From Aurantimonas sp. Leaf443 (GTDB taxonomy: Bacteria > Pseudomonadota > Alphaproteobacteria > Rhizobiales > Rhizobiaceae), in the NCBI RefSeq assembly GCF_001425575.1, contig NZ_LMRD01000006.1, positions 445,977 to 509,976 of the forward strand: a stretch of DNA of 64,000 nt, written 5' to 3'. The first letter of the stretch is position 1. The number at the start of each line of letters is the position of its first letter. Shown here piece after piece: positions 18,839 to 39,965 of this stretch. The translations under genes and the position numbers were made by a program. Below the pieces are notes generated by a model. That model was not told where the DNA came from. It ran no database searches and saw nothing but the letters and a program-made list of their open reading frames with translations.

Positions 18839-18892
18839 TGCAATGTCCCGAAGTCTGCTGGTTGCGGATCCGGCCGGACCCGCCTCATGAAA

Positions 18893-19238
18893 GTGGAGGC
18901 TTCTGTTGCCAGGCGCCTCCGAGCCCCGCCTAGAAGTGCGAACCCCTAGGGCTTGATTTGAAGCTATCGCACAGCCTTAGGCTGCGAGACGCGCTTCCGC
19001 ATAGTTGTCGTTGGCAACTACTTTTTCAGCCCGATAACGGCGGTACAATGCCGAGCAAAAGTCCGATCTTTACGCCCTCGTCGATCCTGCTTCGCCCCCG
19101 CCTCAAACGCCCGGCCGGGCGGTTCAGGTGGAGGCGCCGGGTACTGCCCCCGGGTCCGAAAGGTTTATTACATCGGCCGTTTATCGCCATATCCGGCTTG
19201 CGCCGGCGAGAGGGAATATAGGGGGTCGCCCTCCCGGT
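18893..19238 (-). ncRNA. ssrA: Circularly permuted two-piece tmRNA (alphaproteobacterial SsrA)
   Basis: Read on the minus strand, the acceptor piece comes first and ends CGCCTCC-A-CC at 19136-19127; the CCA end is completed after transcription because the genome has CCT. Its T-arm has the divergent loop CCGGG-GGCAGTA-CCCGG. A spacer of about 27 nt follows, then the coding piece starts at 19099 with GGGGGCG, which pairs with CGCCTCC. The tag reading frame at 19015-18977 encodes ANDNYAEARLAA and a stop, the expected alphaproteobacterial proteolysis tag. A GGAGGC/GCCTCC helix ends the coding piece near 18895. The outer ends are estimated to within about 10-20 bases. Stalled ribosomes are rescued and products tagged for ClpXP via SspB, encoded just downstream. 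Confidence 0.9.
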
Positions 19239-19460
19239 GAAAAGACGCAAAACGCCAGATGCGCGGCTTGTCCGGAAGAATGGCGATGGAGGTCAGGCGC
19301 ACACAAGTTCGGCGGCCCGTGGCCCGCGTTACGTTTTTGACTCGACTCCCGCCGAACGGCGCGGAATCGATAGGCGACGGCTCGCGGCGGAGCCGCGGTT
19401 CGCGATGGCAGAAACTTAACCGATGGGAGGCAGGCTGTTTCGAGGGCAGCCGGAGCCAAC

Positions 19461-28003: not shown

Positions 28004-28060
28004 ATGTCGATCCGCACCACCCTCATTCTCGTAAGATTGCGCACACGCGAGACGGTCTAG
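28004..28060 (+). CDS. ilvB leader peptide (18 aa)
   Basis: The short ORF encodes MSIRTTLILVRLRTRETV and a stop. It contains Ile, Leu, Val and Thr codons clustered in the first ten positions, which suits sensing of branched-chain aminoacyl-tRNA. It sits directly before a set of competing RNA hairpins ending in an intrinsic terminator, upstream of ilvB. The translation start is inferred; the ribosome site is weak. Confidence 0.75.
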   Translation: MSIRTTLILVRLRTRETV

Positions 28061-28120
28061 GAACCGTCCGGCGAAAGCCATCGTGTGCGCAGACCAAAGG
28101 GCCCTCAGAGGCCCTTTTTT
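28038..28120 (+). promoter_or_regulatory. Transcription attenuator of ilvB
   Basis: The leader RNA can form a long stem between TGCGCACACG (28038-28047) and CGTGTGCGCA (28082-28091), enclosing GACGGT/ACCGTC (28051-28056 with 28063-28068) and a small GGC-GAAA-GCC hairpin. This is followed by a terminator with arms AAAGGGCC (28096-28103) and GGCCCTTT (28110-28117) and a T-tract to 28120. The first arm overlaps the leader peptide codons, so ribosome position should decide which structures form. How the antiterminator excludes the terminator is not fully clear by eye. Confidence 0.75.
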
Positions 28121-28193
28121 GTTGCCTTCGACACCCCATTCCCCGCGAGCCAGCCGGCACCCAAGACCGGGCCAGGAAACGAACGGAAGAGCG

Positions 28194-29978
28194 ATGACAC
28201 CGCAGACCGGACAACGTGAAATGACGGGCGCCGAAATGGTCGTCCAGGCGCTGAGGGACAATGGCGTCACCGACATCTTCGGCTATCCCGGCGGCGCGGT
28301 TCTGCCGATCTACGACGAGCTGTTCCAGCAGGAGGATATCCGGCACATCCTGGTGCGCCACGAGCAGGGCGCGGGCCACGCGGCCGAGGGCTATGCGCGC
28401 TCCACCGGCAAGCCGGGCGTCATGCTCGTCACCTCCGGTCCGGGGGCGACGAACGCCGTGACCCCGCTGCAGGACGCGCTGATGGATTCCATCCCGCTCG
28501 TCTGCATCTCCGGCCAGGTGCCGACCAGCCTCATCGGTTCCGACGCCTTCCAGGAATGCGACACGGTCGGGATCACGCGGCCCTGCACCAAGCACAACTG
28601 GCTGGTGAAGGACGTCAACGACCTGTCGCGCATCCTGCACGAGGCCTTCCATGTCGCCACGACCGGCCGCCCGGGCCCCGTCGTCGTCGATGTTCCGAAG
28701 GACGTCCAGTTCGCGACCGGCCTCTACACGCCCCCGCCGGCGAATGCCACCCACGAGAGCTACCGTCCCAGGCTCGACGGCGATCCGCGCGCCATCGCGG
28801 CGGCCGTCGAGATGCTGGCCGGCGCCAAGCGCCCGATCATCTATTCGGGCGGCGGCGTCATCAATTCGGGACCGGAGGCGACGGCGCTCCTGCGCGAGCT
28901 CGTCGCGGCGACGGGCTTCCCGATCACCTCGACGCTGATGGGGCTCGGCGCCTATCCCGCCTCGGGCGAGAACTGGCTCGGCATGCTCGGCATGCACGGG
29001 ACCTACGAGGCCAATCTCGCCATGCATGGCTGCGACGTGATGCTGTGCGTCGGCGCGCGCTTCGACGACCGCATCACCGGGCGCCTGACGGCCTTCTCGC
29101 CGAACTCGCGCAAGATCCACATCGACATCGACCCGTCCTCCATCAACAAGACGGTGCATGTCGACCTGCCGATCATCGGCGATGTCGGCCACGTCCTGAA
29201 GGACCTCGTCGCCGGCGTGAAGGCGGAGGGCACGCGTTTCGAGCGCGAGGCCATCGCGCCCTGGTGGAGCGAGATCCGCACCTGGCGGGCGCGCAAGTGC
29301 CTCTCCTACAAGCCGAGCCGCGACGTCATCATGCCGCAATTCGCCGTCCAGCGCCTCTACGAGGCGACCAAGGACCGCGAGACCTACATCTCGACGGAGG
29401 TCGGCCAGCACCAGATGTGGGCCGCGCAGTTCTACGGCTTCGAGGCGCCGAACCGCTGGCTGACGTCGGGCGGTCTGGGCACGATGGGCTACGGCCTGCC
29501 GGCCTCGATCGGCGCGGCCATCGCCCATCCCGACGCGCTCTCCGTCTGCATCGCGGGCGACGCGTCCGTGCTGATGAACATGCAGGAGATGTCGACGGCG
29601 GTGCAGCACGGCGCCAACGTCAAGATCTTCATCCTGAACAACCAGTATATGGGCATGGTGCGCCAGTGGCAGCAGCTGCTGCACGGCAACCGCCTGTCGC
29701 ATTCCTACACCGAGGCGCTGCCGGACTTCGTCAAGCTCGCCGAGGCCTATGGCGGGCATGGCATCCGCTGCGAGAAGCCGGACGAGCTGGACGACGCCAT
29801 CGCCGAGATGCTCGCGGTGGACAAGCCCGTGCTCTTCGACTGCCGCGTCGCCAATCTCGCCAACTGCTTCCCGATGATCCCGAGCGGCAAGGCCCATAAC
29901 GAGATCCTGCTGCCTGACGAGGCGACGGACGAGGCGGTCGCCACCGCGATCGATGCCAAGGGCAAGGCACTGGTGTAG
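28194..29978 (+). CDS. ilvB: Acetolactate synthase, large (catalytic) subunit (594 aa)
   Basis: This thiamine-diphosphate enzyme makes acetolactate or acetohydroxybutyrate, the first common step to valine, leucine and isoleucine. The catalytic Glu is in HILVRHEQGAGHAAEGYARSTG; the ThDP-binding motif is GDASVLMNMQEMSTAVQHGANVKIFILNNQYMG; the FAD/central domain contains the segment around LMGLGAYPASGENWLGMLGMHG. ATG 28194 lies 73 bases after the attenuator T-tract. Its regulatory subunit gene ilvN is separated from it by a toxin-antitoxin pair. Confidence 0.96.
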   Translation: MTPQTGQREMTGAEMVVQALRDNGVTDIFGYPGGAVLPIYDELFQQEDIRHILVRHEQGAGHAAEGYARSTGKPGVMLVTSGPGATNAVTPLQDALMDSIPLVCISGQVPTSLIGSDAFQECDTVGITRPCTKHNWLVKDVNDLSRILHEAFHVATTGRPGPVVVDVPKDVQFATGLYTPPPANATHESYRPRLDGDPRAIAAAVEMLAGAKRPIIYSGGGVINSGPEATALLRELVAATGFPITSTLMGLGAYPASGENWLGMLGMHGTYEANLAMHGCDVMLCVGARFDDRITGRLTAFSPNSRKIHIDIDPSSINKTVHVDLPIIGDVGHVLKDLVAGVKAEGTRFEREAIAPWWSEIRTWRARKCLSYKPSRDVIMPQFAVQRLYEATKDRETYISTEVGQHQMWAAQFYGFEAPNRWLTSGGLGTMGYGLPASIGAAIAHPDALSVCIAGDASVLMNMQEMSTAVQHGANVKIFILNNQYMGMVRQWQQLLHGNRLSHSYTEALPDFVKLAEAYGGHGIRCEKPDELDDAIAEMLAVDKPVLFDCRVANLANCFPMIPSGKAHNEILLPDEATDEAVATAIDAKGKALV

Positions 29979-29988
29979 GATCGACCAT

Positions 29989-30012
29989 CGGCGCGCCCTT
30001 CGCGGCGCGCCG
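29989..30012. repeat. GC-rich hairpin between ilvB and the antitoxin gene
   Basis: A perfect 9-bp stem (CGGCGCGCC 29989-29997 with GGCGCGCCG 30004-30012) with a CTTCGC loop starts 10 bases after the ilvB stop. It has no T-tract. It may stabilise or attenuate the mRNA at the junction with the inserted toxin-antitoxin genes. Confidence 0.6.
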
Positions 30013-30039
30013 GCCTTCATCCAGGATGCGAGGTGGCCC

Positions 30040-30330
30040 GTGAACGTCATGATCAGAATATCGGCGGGCGGTTCGGTCGAAATCCCGCGGACTGTCCGGG
30101 AGGCTTGCGGCTGGGAGGCCGGCACGGAACTCGAGCTCGTCACGCATGGAACGGAGGTCGTCCTGAGAGCGGCTCCCCAAACGCGGCAGGAGCGCTTCCC
30201 GCCGGTGACGATGGAGGAATTCCTCGCGCGGCGGCCGCGATACACGGGTCCGCCGGTCAGCGATGCGGAGATGAACGAGGCTATCTTGGACGAGGCGAGG
30301 CGGCGTTGGGATGAAAAGATGGGCGGTTGA
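30040..30330 (+). CDS. AbrB/MazE-like antitoxin (96 aa)
   Basis: The N-terminal 45 residues (MNVMIRISAGGSVEIPRTVREACGWEAGTELEL) form a SpoVT/AbrB-type swapped-hairpin DNA-binding domain. The C-terminal half (FLARRPRYTGPPVSDAEMNEAILDEARRRW) is the type of flexible tail that wraps a PIN toxin. GTG 30040 is preferred to ATG 30049 because GAGGT lies 5 bases before it. The end overlaps the toxin gene by 20 bases. The pair is expected to autorepress through the antitoxin. Confidence 0.85.
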   Translation: MNVMIRISAGGSVEIPRTVREACGWEAGTELELVTHGTEVVLRAAPQTRQERFPPVTMEEFLARRPRYTGPPVSDAEMNEAILDEARRRWDEKMGG

Positions 30331-30709
30331 CACGAACATCCTCGTCCGACTTCTCGTGAAAGACGACCCTGTTCAACTCGAGAAGGTGATCGGAGCCCTG
30401 GCCGAAGGCGTATTCGTGGTTCAAACGACGGTTCTCCTGGAAACCGAATGGGTTCTGCGAGGCGTCTACGGTTACGGACGAAGCGATATCGCGACGGCCC
30501 TCGCCGATCTTCTCTCCCTGCCGGACATCCATTTCGTTGAGGAAGCCAGGATCATGGCGGCGGTGAGCATGCATACACGGGGAATGGATTTCGCCGACGC
30601 CCTTCATCTGGCTGGTGACCACCACGCCGACGCGTTTCTTACCTTCGACCGGCATCTCGCCAAGCGTGCGCTCCGGAACGGCTCCACCGTTCCGGTCAGA
30701 CTGCTTTAA
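30311..30709 (+). CDS. VapC-like PIN-domain toxin (132 aa)
   Basis: This is a predicted ribonuclease of the PIN family. Acidic residues for metal binding are D7 (VDTNILVRLL), E44 (LLETEWVLR), D93/D96 (MDFADALHL) and D113 (FLTFDRHLAK). It overlaps the antitoxin gene by 20 bases and ends 25 bases before ilvN, so it lies inside the ilvB-ilvN transcription unit. All catalytic residues are intact, suggesting a functional pair. VapC toxins typically cut tRNA or rRNA; the target here is unknown. Confidence 0.88.
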   Translation: MKRWAVDTNILVRLLVKDDPVQLEKVIGALAEGVFVVQTTVLLETEWVLRGVYGYGRSDIATALADLLSLPDIHFVEEARIMAAVSMHTRGMDFADALHLAGDHHADAFLTFDRHLAKRALRNGSTVPVRLL

Positions 30710-30733
30710 ACCATCCATCGAGCATCGAGACCA

Positions 30734-31306
30734 ATGAACCAGCCCATCCAGCCGCCGGCCTCGGCCTATTTCATCACCGAGGAGAAGGAGAAGCCCAAGC
30801 CGCGCACGCTGTCGATCCTCGTCGACAACGAGCCGGGCGTGCTTGCCCGCGTCATCGGCCTCTTTTCCGGCCGCGGCTACAATATCGAGAGCCTGACCGT
30901 CTCGGAGACCGAGCACGAGAAGCACCTGTCGCGCATCACCATCGTGACGCGCGGGACGCCGCATGTGGTGGACCAGATCAAGAGCCAGCTCGACCGTATC
31001 GTGCCGGTGCACCGCGTGATCGACCTGACGCGCGCCGCCGATCAGGACGGGGAAAGCGGCCCGATCGAGCGCGAGCTCGCGATCGTGAAGGTCGCGGGCA
31101 CGGGCGATGCGCGGGTCGAAGCGCTGCGCATCGCCGACGTGTTCCGCGCCAAGGTGATCGACACCTCGACGGAGCATTTCGTCTTCGAGGTGACGGGCCG
31201 GACCTCGAAGATCGACAAGTTCGTCTCGATCATGCAGCCGATCGGCCTCGTCGAGATCTGCCGCACGGGCGTCTCGGCGCTCGCGCGCGGCGCTTCCGCC
31301 ATGTGA
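30734..31306 (+). CDS. ilvN: Acetolactate synthase, small (regulatory) subunit (190 aa)
   Basis: This is the valine-sensing regulatory subunit of acetolactate synthase. The N-terminal ACT domain is RTLSILVDNEPGVLARVIGLFSGRGYNIESLTVSETE; a second ACT-like C-terminal domain follows (ELAIVKVAGTGDARVEALRIADVFRAKVIDTS). The length suits the long (IlvH-type) form. It lies 25 bases after the toxin gene and 755 bases after ilvB; its expression presumably depends on read-through across the toxin-antitoxin pair or on an unseen internal promoter. Confidence 0.95.
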   Translation: MNQPIQPPASAYFITEEKEKPKPRTLSILVDNEPGVLARVIGLFSGRGYNIESLTVSETEHEKHLSRITIVTRGTPHVVDQIKSQLDRIVPVHRVIDLTRAADQDGESGPIERELAIVKVAGTGDARVEALRIADVFRAKVIDTSTEHFVFEVTGRTSKIDKFVSIMQPIGLVEICRTGVSALARGASAM

Positions 31307-32323: not shown

Positions 32324-33133
32324 TCAGGCGGGGATCTCGTCGATCCAGACCTTGAAGTCGGAAAGGAGGTTGCTGCCGAACGTATGCGTCAGCGGCACGT
32401 CCGCCGCGTCGCGCCCGTAGGCGACGAGGATGCGGCCGAAGCGCACGTCGTTGTTGCGGGGATCGAAGGTCCACCAGCGCCCGCCGAGATAGACCTCCAT
32501 CCAGGCCGCGAAATCCATCGTGGCATAGGGAGGGGGCAGGCCGACATCGCTGATATAGCCCGTGCAGTAGCGCGTCGGGATGTTCATGCAGCGGCAGAGC
32601 GTGACGGCGAGATGGGTGAAGTCGCGGCAAACGCCGACGCCTTCGTTAAAGGCCTCGAAGGCGGTGCGCGTCGCCCGCGAGTGATTGTAGCCGAAGGTGA
32701 TGTGGTTGTGCACGAAGTCGCAGATGGCCTGGACGCGGCCCCAGCCGGGATTGGTGTGCCCGAACAGGCGCCAGGCCTCCTGCATCAGGAGATCGGTCTC
32801 GCAGTAGCGGCTGCCGAGGAGAAAGACCAGCGTGTCCGAAGGCAGGTCCTCGACCGGGTGCTGGATGGCGTCCAGCCCGACCGGATCGGAGAAGCCGTCA
32901 TAGTGGATGATGCCGTCGGTGCGCAGGCGGAACGGGCCGGCGGGGGCCACGACGCGGTTGCACCAGTTGCCGAAACTGTCGCGATAGCTGGTGATGGGCA
33001 CGGCGGGCGTCGTCGTCAGGTAGTCCGGCCTCTCGAAATTGCCGAACTGCGAGAAGTGCACGTTCAGCATGACGATCATCGGTGTCGGCACCGAGAAGTC
33101 GTAGGAGAGTTCGCAGCCCAGTCGCAGTCTCAT
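32324..33133 (-). CDS. Transglutaminase-like protein, predicted cysteine protease fold (269 aa)
   Basis: This belongs to the bacterial transglutaminase-like family (COG1305). An N-terminal beta region (MRLRLGCELSYDFSVPTPMIVMLNVHFSQ) precedes the core: the expected nucleophile Cys in EGVGVCRDFTHLAVTLCR and Asp in WWTFDPRNN. At the position where I expect the catalytic His (usually DFHAWxE) the sequence is DFAAWMEVY, so the triad may be incomplete. ATG 33133 is chosen; an in-frame start at 33178 is possible. The gene is convergent with the LysE gene. Confidence 0.8.
   Translation of the reverse strand: MRLRLGCELSYDFSVPTPMIVMLNVHFSQFGNFERPDYLTTTPAVPITSYRDSFGNWCNRVVAPAGPFRLRTDGIIHYDGFSDPVGLDAIQHPVEDLPSDTLVFLLGSRYCETDLLMQEAWRLFGHTNPGWGRVQAICDFVHNHITFGYNHSRATRTAFEAFNEGVGVCRDFTHLAVTLCRCMNIPTRYCTGYISDVGLPPPYATMDFAAWMEVYLGGRWWTFDPRNNDVRFGRILVAYGRDAADVPLTHTFGSNLLSDFKVWIDEIPA

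Positions 33134-39889: not shown

Positions 39890-39965
<76 letters not shown>

Follow-up and report, generated by a model that had tools for sequence, protein, structure and literature searches.

In part of the order Hyphomicrobiales, a VapBC-type toxin–antitoxin module between ilvB and ilvN is probably a swapped and decaying resident of a fixed slot

Why does a toxin–antitoxin pair lie between the genes for the two subunits of acetolactate synthase, and does it serve the operon that houses it? The question is raised by a stretch of 64,000 nt from Aurantimonas sp. Leaf443 (contig NZ_LMRD01000006.1, positions 445,977 to 509,976; hereafter the window), in which ilvB, an antitoxin ORF, a PIN toxin and ilvN follow one another on the plus strand (Table 1). 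The antitoxin comes first and its ORF overlaps that of the toxin by 20 nt on the same strand, and a spacer of 24 nt (30710–30733) separates the toxin from ilvN. An earlier interpretation made from the letters alone (the sequence-only reading) had described a VapBC-like pair inserted between ilvB and ilvN on their shared strand with all acidic residues of the toxin intact. The coordinates, the strand and the residues are confirmed, as is the first of its two spacers (61 nt), while the second, given as 25 bases, is 24 nt. From the leader to position 32500, a search of the plus strand gave no terminator-like site. Searched against its own genome at E 0.001, the window toxin matched itself alone. 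Elsewhere in the window lie a tmRNA gene (18886–19247, minus strand), which the permuted-tmRNA model matches too, and a tRNA-Lys (CTT) gene (39890–39965, plus strand).

Table 1 Features of the ilv region in the window, with the evidence for each assignment.
Feature	Position in window	Strand	Evidence
ilv leader / attenuator region	28009–28131	+	Rfam RF02502 Atu_C8, cmscan 73.2 bits
ilvB, acetolactate synthase large subunit	28194–29978	+	NCBIfam NF006581, 1172.7 bits
Spacer ilvB/antitoxin, 61 nt	29979–30039	+	Palindrome GGCGCGCC-CTTCGC-GGCGCGCC (operator-like or RNA hairpin); read from sequence
Antitoxin, AbrB/MazE-type (VapB-like), 96 aa, GTG start	30040–30330	+	Pfam PF04014 and TIGR01439, both below cut-off
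Toxin, PIN domain (VapC-like), 132 aa	30311–30709	+	PF01850, 37.5 bits; alignment of 27; AlphaFold2; structural matches
ilvN, acetolactate synthase small (regulatory) subunit	30734–31306	+	NF008864, 220.2 bits

PIN toxins of the VapC kind cut RNA, and an overlapping antitoxin holds them. The window toxin matches the Pfam PIN family above its cut-off (23.6 bits; E 4e-9) and carries all four acidic PIN residues, Asp7, Glu44, Asp96 and Asp113, of which the first three are invariant and the last nearly so in an alignment of the toxins of 27 relatives. The antitoxin scores 20.6 bits against PF04014 and 22.9 bits against TIGR01439, under the curated cut-offs of 24.7 and 28.3, respectively, and its AbrB signature loop is degenerate, reading SAGGS where most relatives have SSKGQ; the canonical signature is found at 28 of 44 loci with the module between ilvB and ilvN (two rows corrected by hand). 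PADLOC returned chance-level matches only. Two AlphaFold2 models of the toxin, built from 27 and 71 rows, both have a pLDDT of 95, and the top structural matches include the VapC chains 5x3t, 7vwo and 3zvk together with PcrIIC1 (8wmm, Z 8.4), the last also being the sole match of the toxin profile among PDB sequences at 0.001. Superposition on solved VapCs is limited to toxin residues 1–77 (Z about 4–7), the C-terminal half of the model matches other VapCs separately, and the best Foldseek E value is 3.7e-3. Judged by its sequence, the window pair is a VapBC-type toxin–antitoxin module. Both models, at high confidence, arrange the two PIN halves unlike solved VapCs, with a hinge near residue 77; this placement could be either a modelling artefact or an open or swapped form.

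We explored how far the arrangement extends, beginning with 61 genomes (the window's own and 60 relatives), in 59 of which ilvN was found. The ilvB–ilvN interval of these 59, which we call the slot, holds an antitoxin–toxin pair in 8 (732–782 nt), seven in the window's family and one in another family of the order; the gap is at most 120 nt in 36 and about 220–260 nt in three, and 12 contain other inserts, including EamA transporters and a GST. The survey of the family covered 394 genomes, with IlvN detected in 374 (IlvN positions were obtained for about 155 among the matches listed), and used the window toxin and then a 27-row toxin profile as queries. At E 1e-25 the profile gave 55 matches in 51 genomes, and all profile matches of this strength or stronger were placed, a slot placement meaning that the ilvB and ilvN flanks were detected by tblastn in the DNA around the match; matches of the window toxin between 1e-12 and 1e-18 were placed in part. 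Of the 55, 39 lie at the slot and 16 elsewhere, 15 of the latter having neither ilvB nor ilvN in flanks of about 1.5–2.5 kb and one being placed by contig number only. Slot toxins score 145.8–179.2 bits and the others 99.9–145.7, a separation that narrows to 0.1 bit (G109, 145.8; G232, 145.7) and that is partly built in, since the profile was made from 27 slot toxins. In the sampled family, the high-scoring group is found at the slot in 39 of 39 cases. Among 297 genomes of the order, searched with the profile at E 1e-18, the slot module occurs in the window, in four genomes of a second family (f20) and in one of a third (f16). The 289 genomes of the class yielded at E 1e-25 six further toxin matches, none of them at ilv genes, so that here the window was alone in having the slot module. 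Of at least 544 relatives, the best 80 include three that carry it at the slot, namely Shinella sp. UYSO24, a Phreatobacter MAG and Aureimonas sp. SK2, whose toxin is identical to that of G102.

The slot is patchy, being empty or holding another gene in most relatives. In 18 of 20 further relatives without the module, mostly congeners of carriers, the gap measures 2–145 nt, and together with the 36 short gaps (of 59) in the first sample these show an operon that is continuous where the module is absent. Two congeners of carriers, G128 (L121) and G311 (L122), have an ORF of 85–87 aa in the slot, for which a Pfam search found no family. In G110 the slot is shared by the toxin–antitoxin pair and an EamA gene located after the toxin. 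EamA/DMT transporter genes lie between ilvB and ilvN at L118 (the G110 locus), L020, L031, L039, L045, L074 and L075. Intervals of about 1.6–2.2 kb that contain large ORFs, some of them in opposite orientation, are seen at L071 (G026), L072 (G022), L073 (G036), L295 (G160) and L296 (G279), all in relatives near the window.

Do the toxins found at the slot form one lineage? In a tree of 129 toxins, a branch splits 38 slot toxins from 91 others with 32% SH-aLRT support. In a tree of 161 (42 slot toxins, 119 others), the slot label needs three changes, compared with a mean of 37 for shuffled labels, and constraining the slot toxins to one group improves the likelihood by 35 log units over the tree from the free quick search (AU p 0.83). 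Left out of these trees were G171, in which a stop breaks the toxin frame, and G347, with a mis-called start; G192, G218, G236 and G107 are likewise not among their rows. A well supported clade of slot toxins on a single branch was not obtained, the support being 32% in the smaller tree and the label needing three changes in the larger; one clade as such is not rejected. The tests on the larger tree make a single slot-restricted lineage compatible with the data, and such a VapBC lineage is favoured, not proved, by these sequence comparisons.

Within the slot, the module and its flanks appear to have different histories. G109 and G249 share 100% of IlvN and 98% of IlvB, and their toxins are 39% identical; in G117 and G252 the corresponding values are 100%, 99% and 48%. 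At the DNA level, G109 and G249 are 82–97% identical in ilvB, 32–63% in the module and 92–95% in ilvN, and between congeners the identity breaks sharply at the module edges, with 92% DNA identity persisting in G117/G252 over the first 60 nt past ilvB. Two sisters of genus g118, G413 and G192 (100/100 support from ilvB and ilvN DNA), are 95.0% alike in ilvBN and 59.8% in the module, and the allele classes G117/G306/G413 and G252/G347/G192 are interleaved on the ilvB+ilvN tree. Over 35 slot loci, the correlation of identity between toxin and IlvN is weak (rho 0.28, Mantel p 0.0005) beside that between IlvN and IlvB (rho 0.88), and many pairs of slot toxins share 28–50% identity. No diversifying selection was detected in the module, dN/dS values of 0.04–0.58 all being below 1; together with synonymous distances in the module that differ from those of the flanks, this favours exchange over positive selection. 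Decay is seen as well. G192 has an internal TGA in the toxin with the antitoxin frame open, in G102 the antitoxin frame is broken and toxin Asp113 is replaced by Arg, and in G391 a 243-nt gap holds an antitoxin remnant (23.6 bits; best shuffle 9.9), the sole remnant in 81 gaps, each controlled with 20 shuffles.

The spacers behind ilvB point to regulatory sequence of the module's own in most relatives. Among 36 slot loci (one, G055, from another family; the G102 spacer trimmed to 60 nt owing to its broken antitoxin frame), TCTTAC/GTAAGA occurs in the spacers of 20, with 51 sites in total against a shuffled mean of 1.0 and maximum of 5, and in none of 20 empty slots. It also lies upstream of 12 of 15 unlinked VapBC modules, usually as pairs 11 bp apart, and looks like a putative operator of this antitoxin family. 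Over 44 slot loci, the AbrB signature (KGQ/RGQ) and a TCTTAC-type site are found together in 26, the signature only in 2, the site only in none and neither in 16 (hand corrections: G301, signature out of frame, counted as none; G110, SNKGQ, counted as signature only). The association is strong by Fisher's test (p about 4e-10), a value that rests on about five changes on the tree and on one independent pair only if well supported branches are considered. Many of the 16 loci with neither, among them the window, show another palindrome in this position. A promoter-like TTGAxx-N17-TAxxxT is found in slot spacers, its -35 element coinciding with the ilvB stop or following it directly; the scores of the 36 spacers average 7.4 of 12 compared with 5.9 after shuffling, and 13 of 36 reach p 0.05. 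In the window's 61-nt spacer, TCTTAC/GTAAGA is absent and the promoter score is 6 of 12 (shuffle p 0.42). The palindrome in this spacer was considered as a terminator and rejected, the T run being absent and the fold z only -1.2. Because the DNA-binding loop of the antitoxin is degenerate and a promoter was not found, autoregulation is doubtful in the window, and a spacer with neither promoter nor TCTTAC operator makes read-through from the leader plausible in this genome.

As the most probable account, which we hold with reasonable if not full confidence, a VapBC-type module is resident in a fixed ilvB–ilvN slot in part of the order Hyphomicrobiales (the order as judged from Shinella, Aureimonas and Phreatobacter among the relatives) as a swapped, decaying and largely self-maintaining passenger. 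The toxin would act as an RNase held by its antitoxin, which in most relatives would also repress a promoter immediately behind ilvB; ilvN would be reached by transcripts that cross the module, those from the module promoter included. Homologous recombination within the conserved ilvB and ilvN sequences on either side may swap alleles, which may otherwise decay, and the module is presumably not needed for branched-chain synthesis. In the window genome, expression of the module would most likely depend on read-through from the attenuated ilv promoter. A bolder form of this account treats ilvB–ilvN as a dedicated allelic locus, in which divergent alleles with their own antitoxin–operator pairs compete for the place, swaps between species resemble those of mating-type-like or incompatible alleles and occur by recombination in the conserved enzyme genes, and the essential operon guards against deletion; this is a tentative proposal that we consider doubtful.

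The sequence-only reading described the pair as inserted; taken as a local event, this would be a recent jump of a VapBC module into this lineage's ilv operon. The nearest readable relatives by IlvN (G125, G197, G324, G224 and G065) do have short empty gaps of 98–135 nt, G026, also near the window by IlvN, has another gene in the slot, and the GC content of the module is 61.8% compared with 70.3% in the window, a value equally low in 1.5% of 670-nt stretches. Across 35 slot loci, the module has a lower GC content than its flanks at 34, the mean difference being 5.8 points. Against a recent jump, the same arrangement with slot-associated toxins is present in 39 of the 394 family genomes and recurs in two further families, and no mobile-element signature was found at the two junctions, the longest word common to both being 6 nt, which we take as chance. 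The local insertion is thus unlikely, and we consider it largely refuted by what the tree and the profile survey indicate. The sequence-only reading had also raised the case of an arrangement common to the whole order, which would be ancient; it is indeed old and present in several families, but patchy rather than uniform. In place of the insertion, the comparisons favour an old, slot-bound, swapping VapBC lineage, which in the sampled relatives was found nowhere but at the slot.

Could the module instead be a part of branched-chain control? The RF02502 match directly upstream of ilvB in the window exceeds the gathering threshold of 50 bits and contains a leader peptide ORF read from the sequence, MSIRTTLILVRLRTRETV, rich in Leu, Ile and Val, with a terminator-like hairpin at 28096–28117 and a fold z of -2.4 for the leader RNA. 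The element resembles the alphaproteobacterial ilvB attenuator and RF02502 Atu_C8; an ilvB leader peptide of alphaproteobacteria is mentioned as previously described in the accessible text of PMC1273637, which cites Vitreschak et al. 2004. Catalogued as "Rhizobiales sRNA Atu_C8", RF02502 lies directly upstream of ilvB in the window and in 38 of 40 relatives scanned, and this family looks like an ilv attenuator leader, not a free sRNA. The ilvB attenuator is known on its own; its pairing with a toxin–antitoxin module was not found in the open-access literature searched.

If the attenuator set the dosage of the module, starvation for Leu, Ile or Val would induce it along with ilvB and ilvN. The leader directly upstream, the lack of a detected terminator-like site between ilvB and ilvN and a window spacer without its own promoter are in line with such control. 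However, the leader is found upstream of ilvB in 18 of 20 loci with the module and just as well in 20 of 20 empty loci, and being present with or without the module it is part of the ilv operon, not of the module. In addition, most relatives have promoter or operator sequence of the module's own, the slot also accommodates unrelated genes, a GST and EamA transporters among them, and the module copies are patchy and decaying. We therefore judge a role as a control part improbable; a resident passenger that maintains itself accounts for the slot-confined, patchy, swapped and decaying behaviour better than does a fixed role in branched-chain control. The link that the sequence-only reading proposed between toxin–antitoxin dosage and the attenuator is weak and unproven: the leader is real and the window spacer has no such site of its own, while relatives mostly have their own operator- or promoter-like site, so that such coupling is possible in the window genome and not a general rule. 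Its other proposal, that ilvN is expressed by read-through of the module, is consistent with the 24-nt spacer, in which no terminator-like site was found. As for the isolating terminator and separate promoters that it had named as the opposite case, the former was not detected, and promoter-like sites occur in relatives, not in the window. Still less credible is a feedback loop in which VapC cuts a branched-chain tRNA, the leader peptide stalls and the toxin's own operon rises: the anatomy alone, a leader peptide with Leu/Ile/Val codons ahead of an RNase toxin from a tRNA-cutting family, would suit it, and the frequent 28–50% identity between slot toxins argues against one conserved tRNA target, leaving it very improbable.

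The slot offers material on a wider problem. The persistence of chromosomal toxin–antitoxin pairs is an open question, and slots that are empty, occupied, decayed or swapped within genera, with unrelated alleles of one confined toxin lineage between near-identical flanks, could serve as natural replicates in studies of addiction, allele competition and decay. Co-expression of ilvB and ilvN in these bacteria may also change where an internal promoter precedes the regulatory subunit gene. In open-access literature (subscription journals being outside the scope), no case of a toxin–antitoxin pair at ilvB–ilvN was found.

Among known systems, ccdO157 of E. coli is intergenic and is not known to lie inside an operon, and CcdB is a gyrase poison. 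Located between folA and apaH, it is likewise a chromosomal toxin–antitoxin pair at one fixed intergenic place, with decay, as described in the accessible text of PMC7167474, which cites Mine et al. 2009; it belongs to one species, whereas the ilvB–ilvN module occurs in at least three families. VapBC10 of Sinorhizobium meliloti resembles the window pair in its PIN RNase toxin and overlapping DNA-binding antitoxin, and its VapC10 cuts tRNA-Ser, according to the accessible text of PMC10945364; the VapBC of Bosea sp., as far as its accessible description goes, also combines a PIN toxin with an overlapping antitoxin. For these rhizobial loci an ilvB–ilvN location is not reported in the text available, and the main text of PMC10945364, on S. 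meliloti, does not contain the word "ilv". The closest known kind is the toxin–antitoxin pair of an intercistronic slot, of which relA-mazEF-mazG is an example. In the accessible text of PMC7167474, the intercistronic regions of relA–mazG and dinB–yafP hold toxin–antitoxin pairs, the operons are undisturbed in strains without the pair, and such slots are plastic, with other elements possible. The E. coli relA-mazEF-mazG and dinB–yafP cases thus represent the same kind of place, inside an operon that is intact in relatives without the pair, with other toxin families and in another operon. Unlike relA-mazEF-mazG, the ilvB–ilvN slot lies between two subunit genes of one enzyme and extends over at least three families, and a single toxin lineage appears nearly confined there, its alleles probably swapped.
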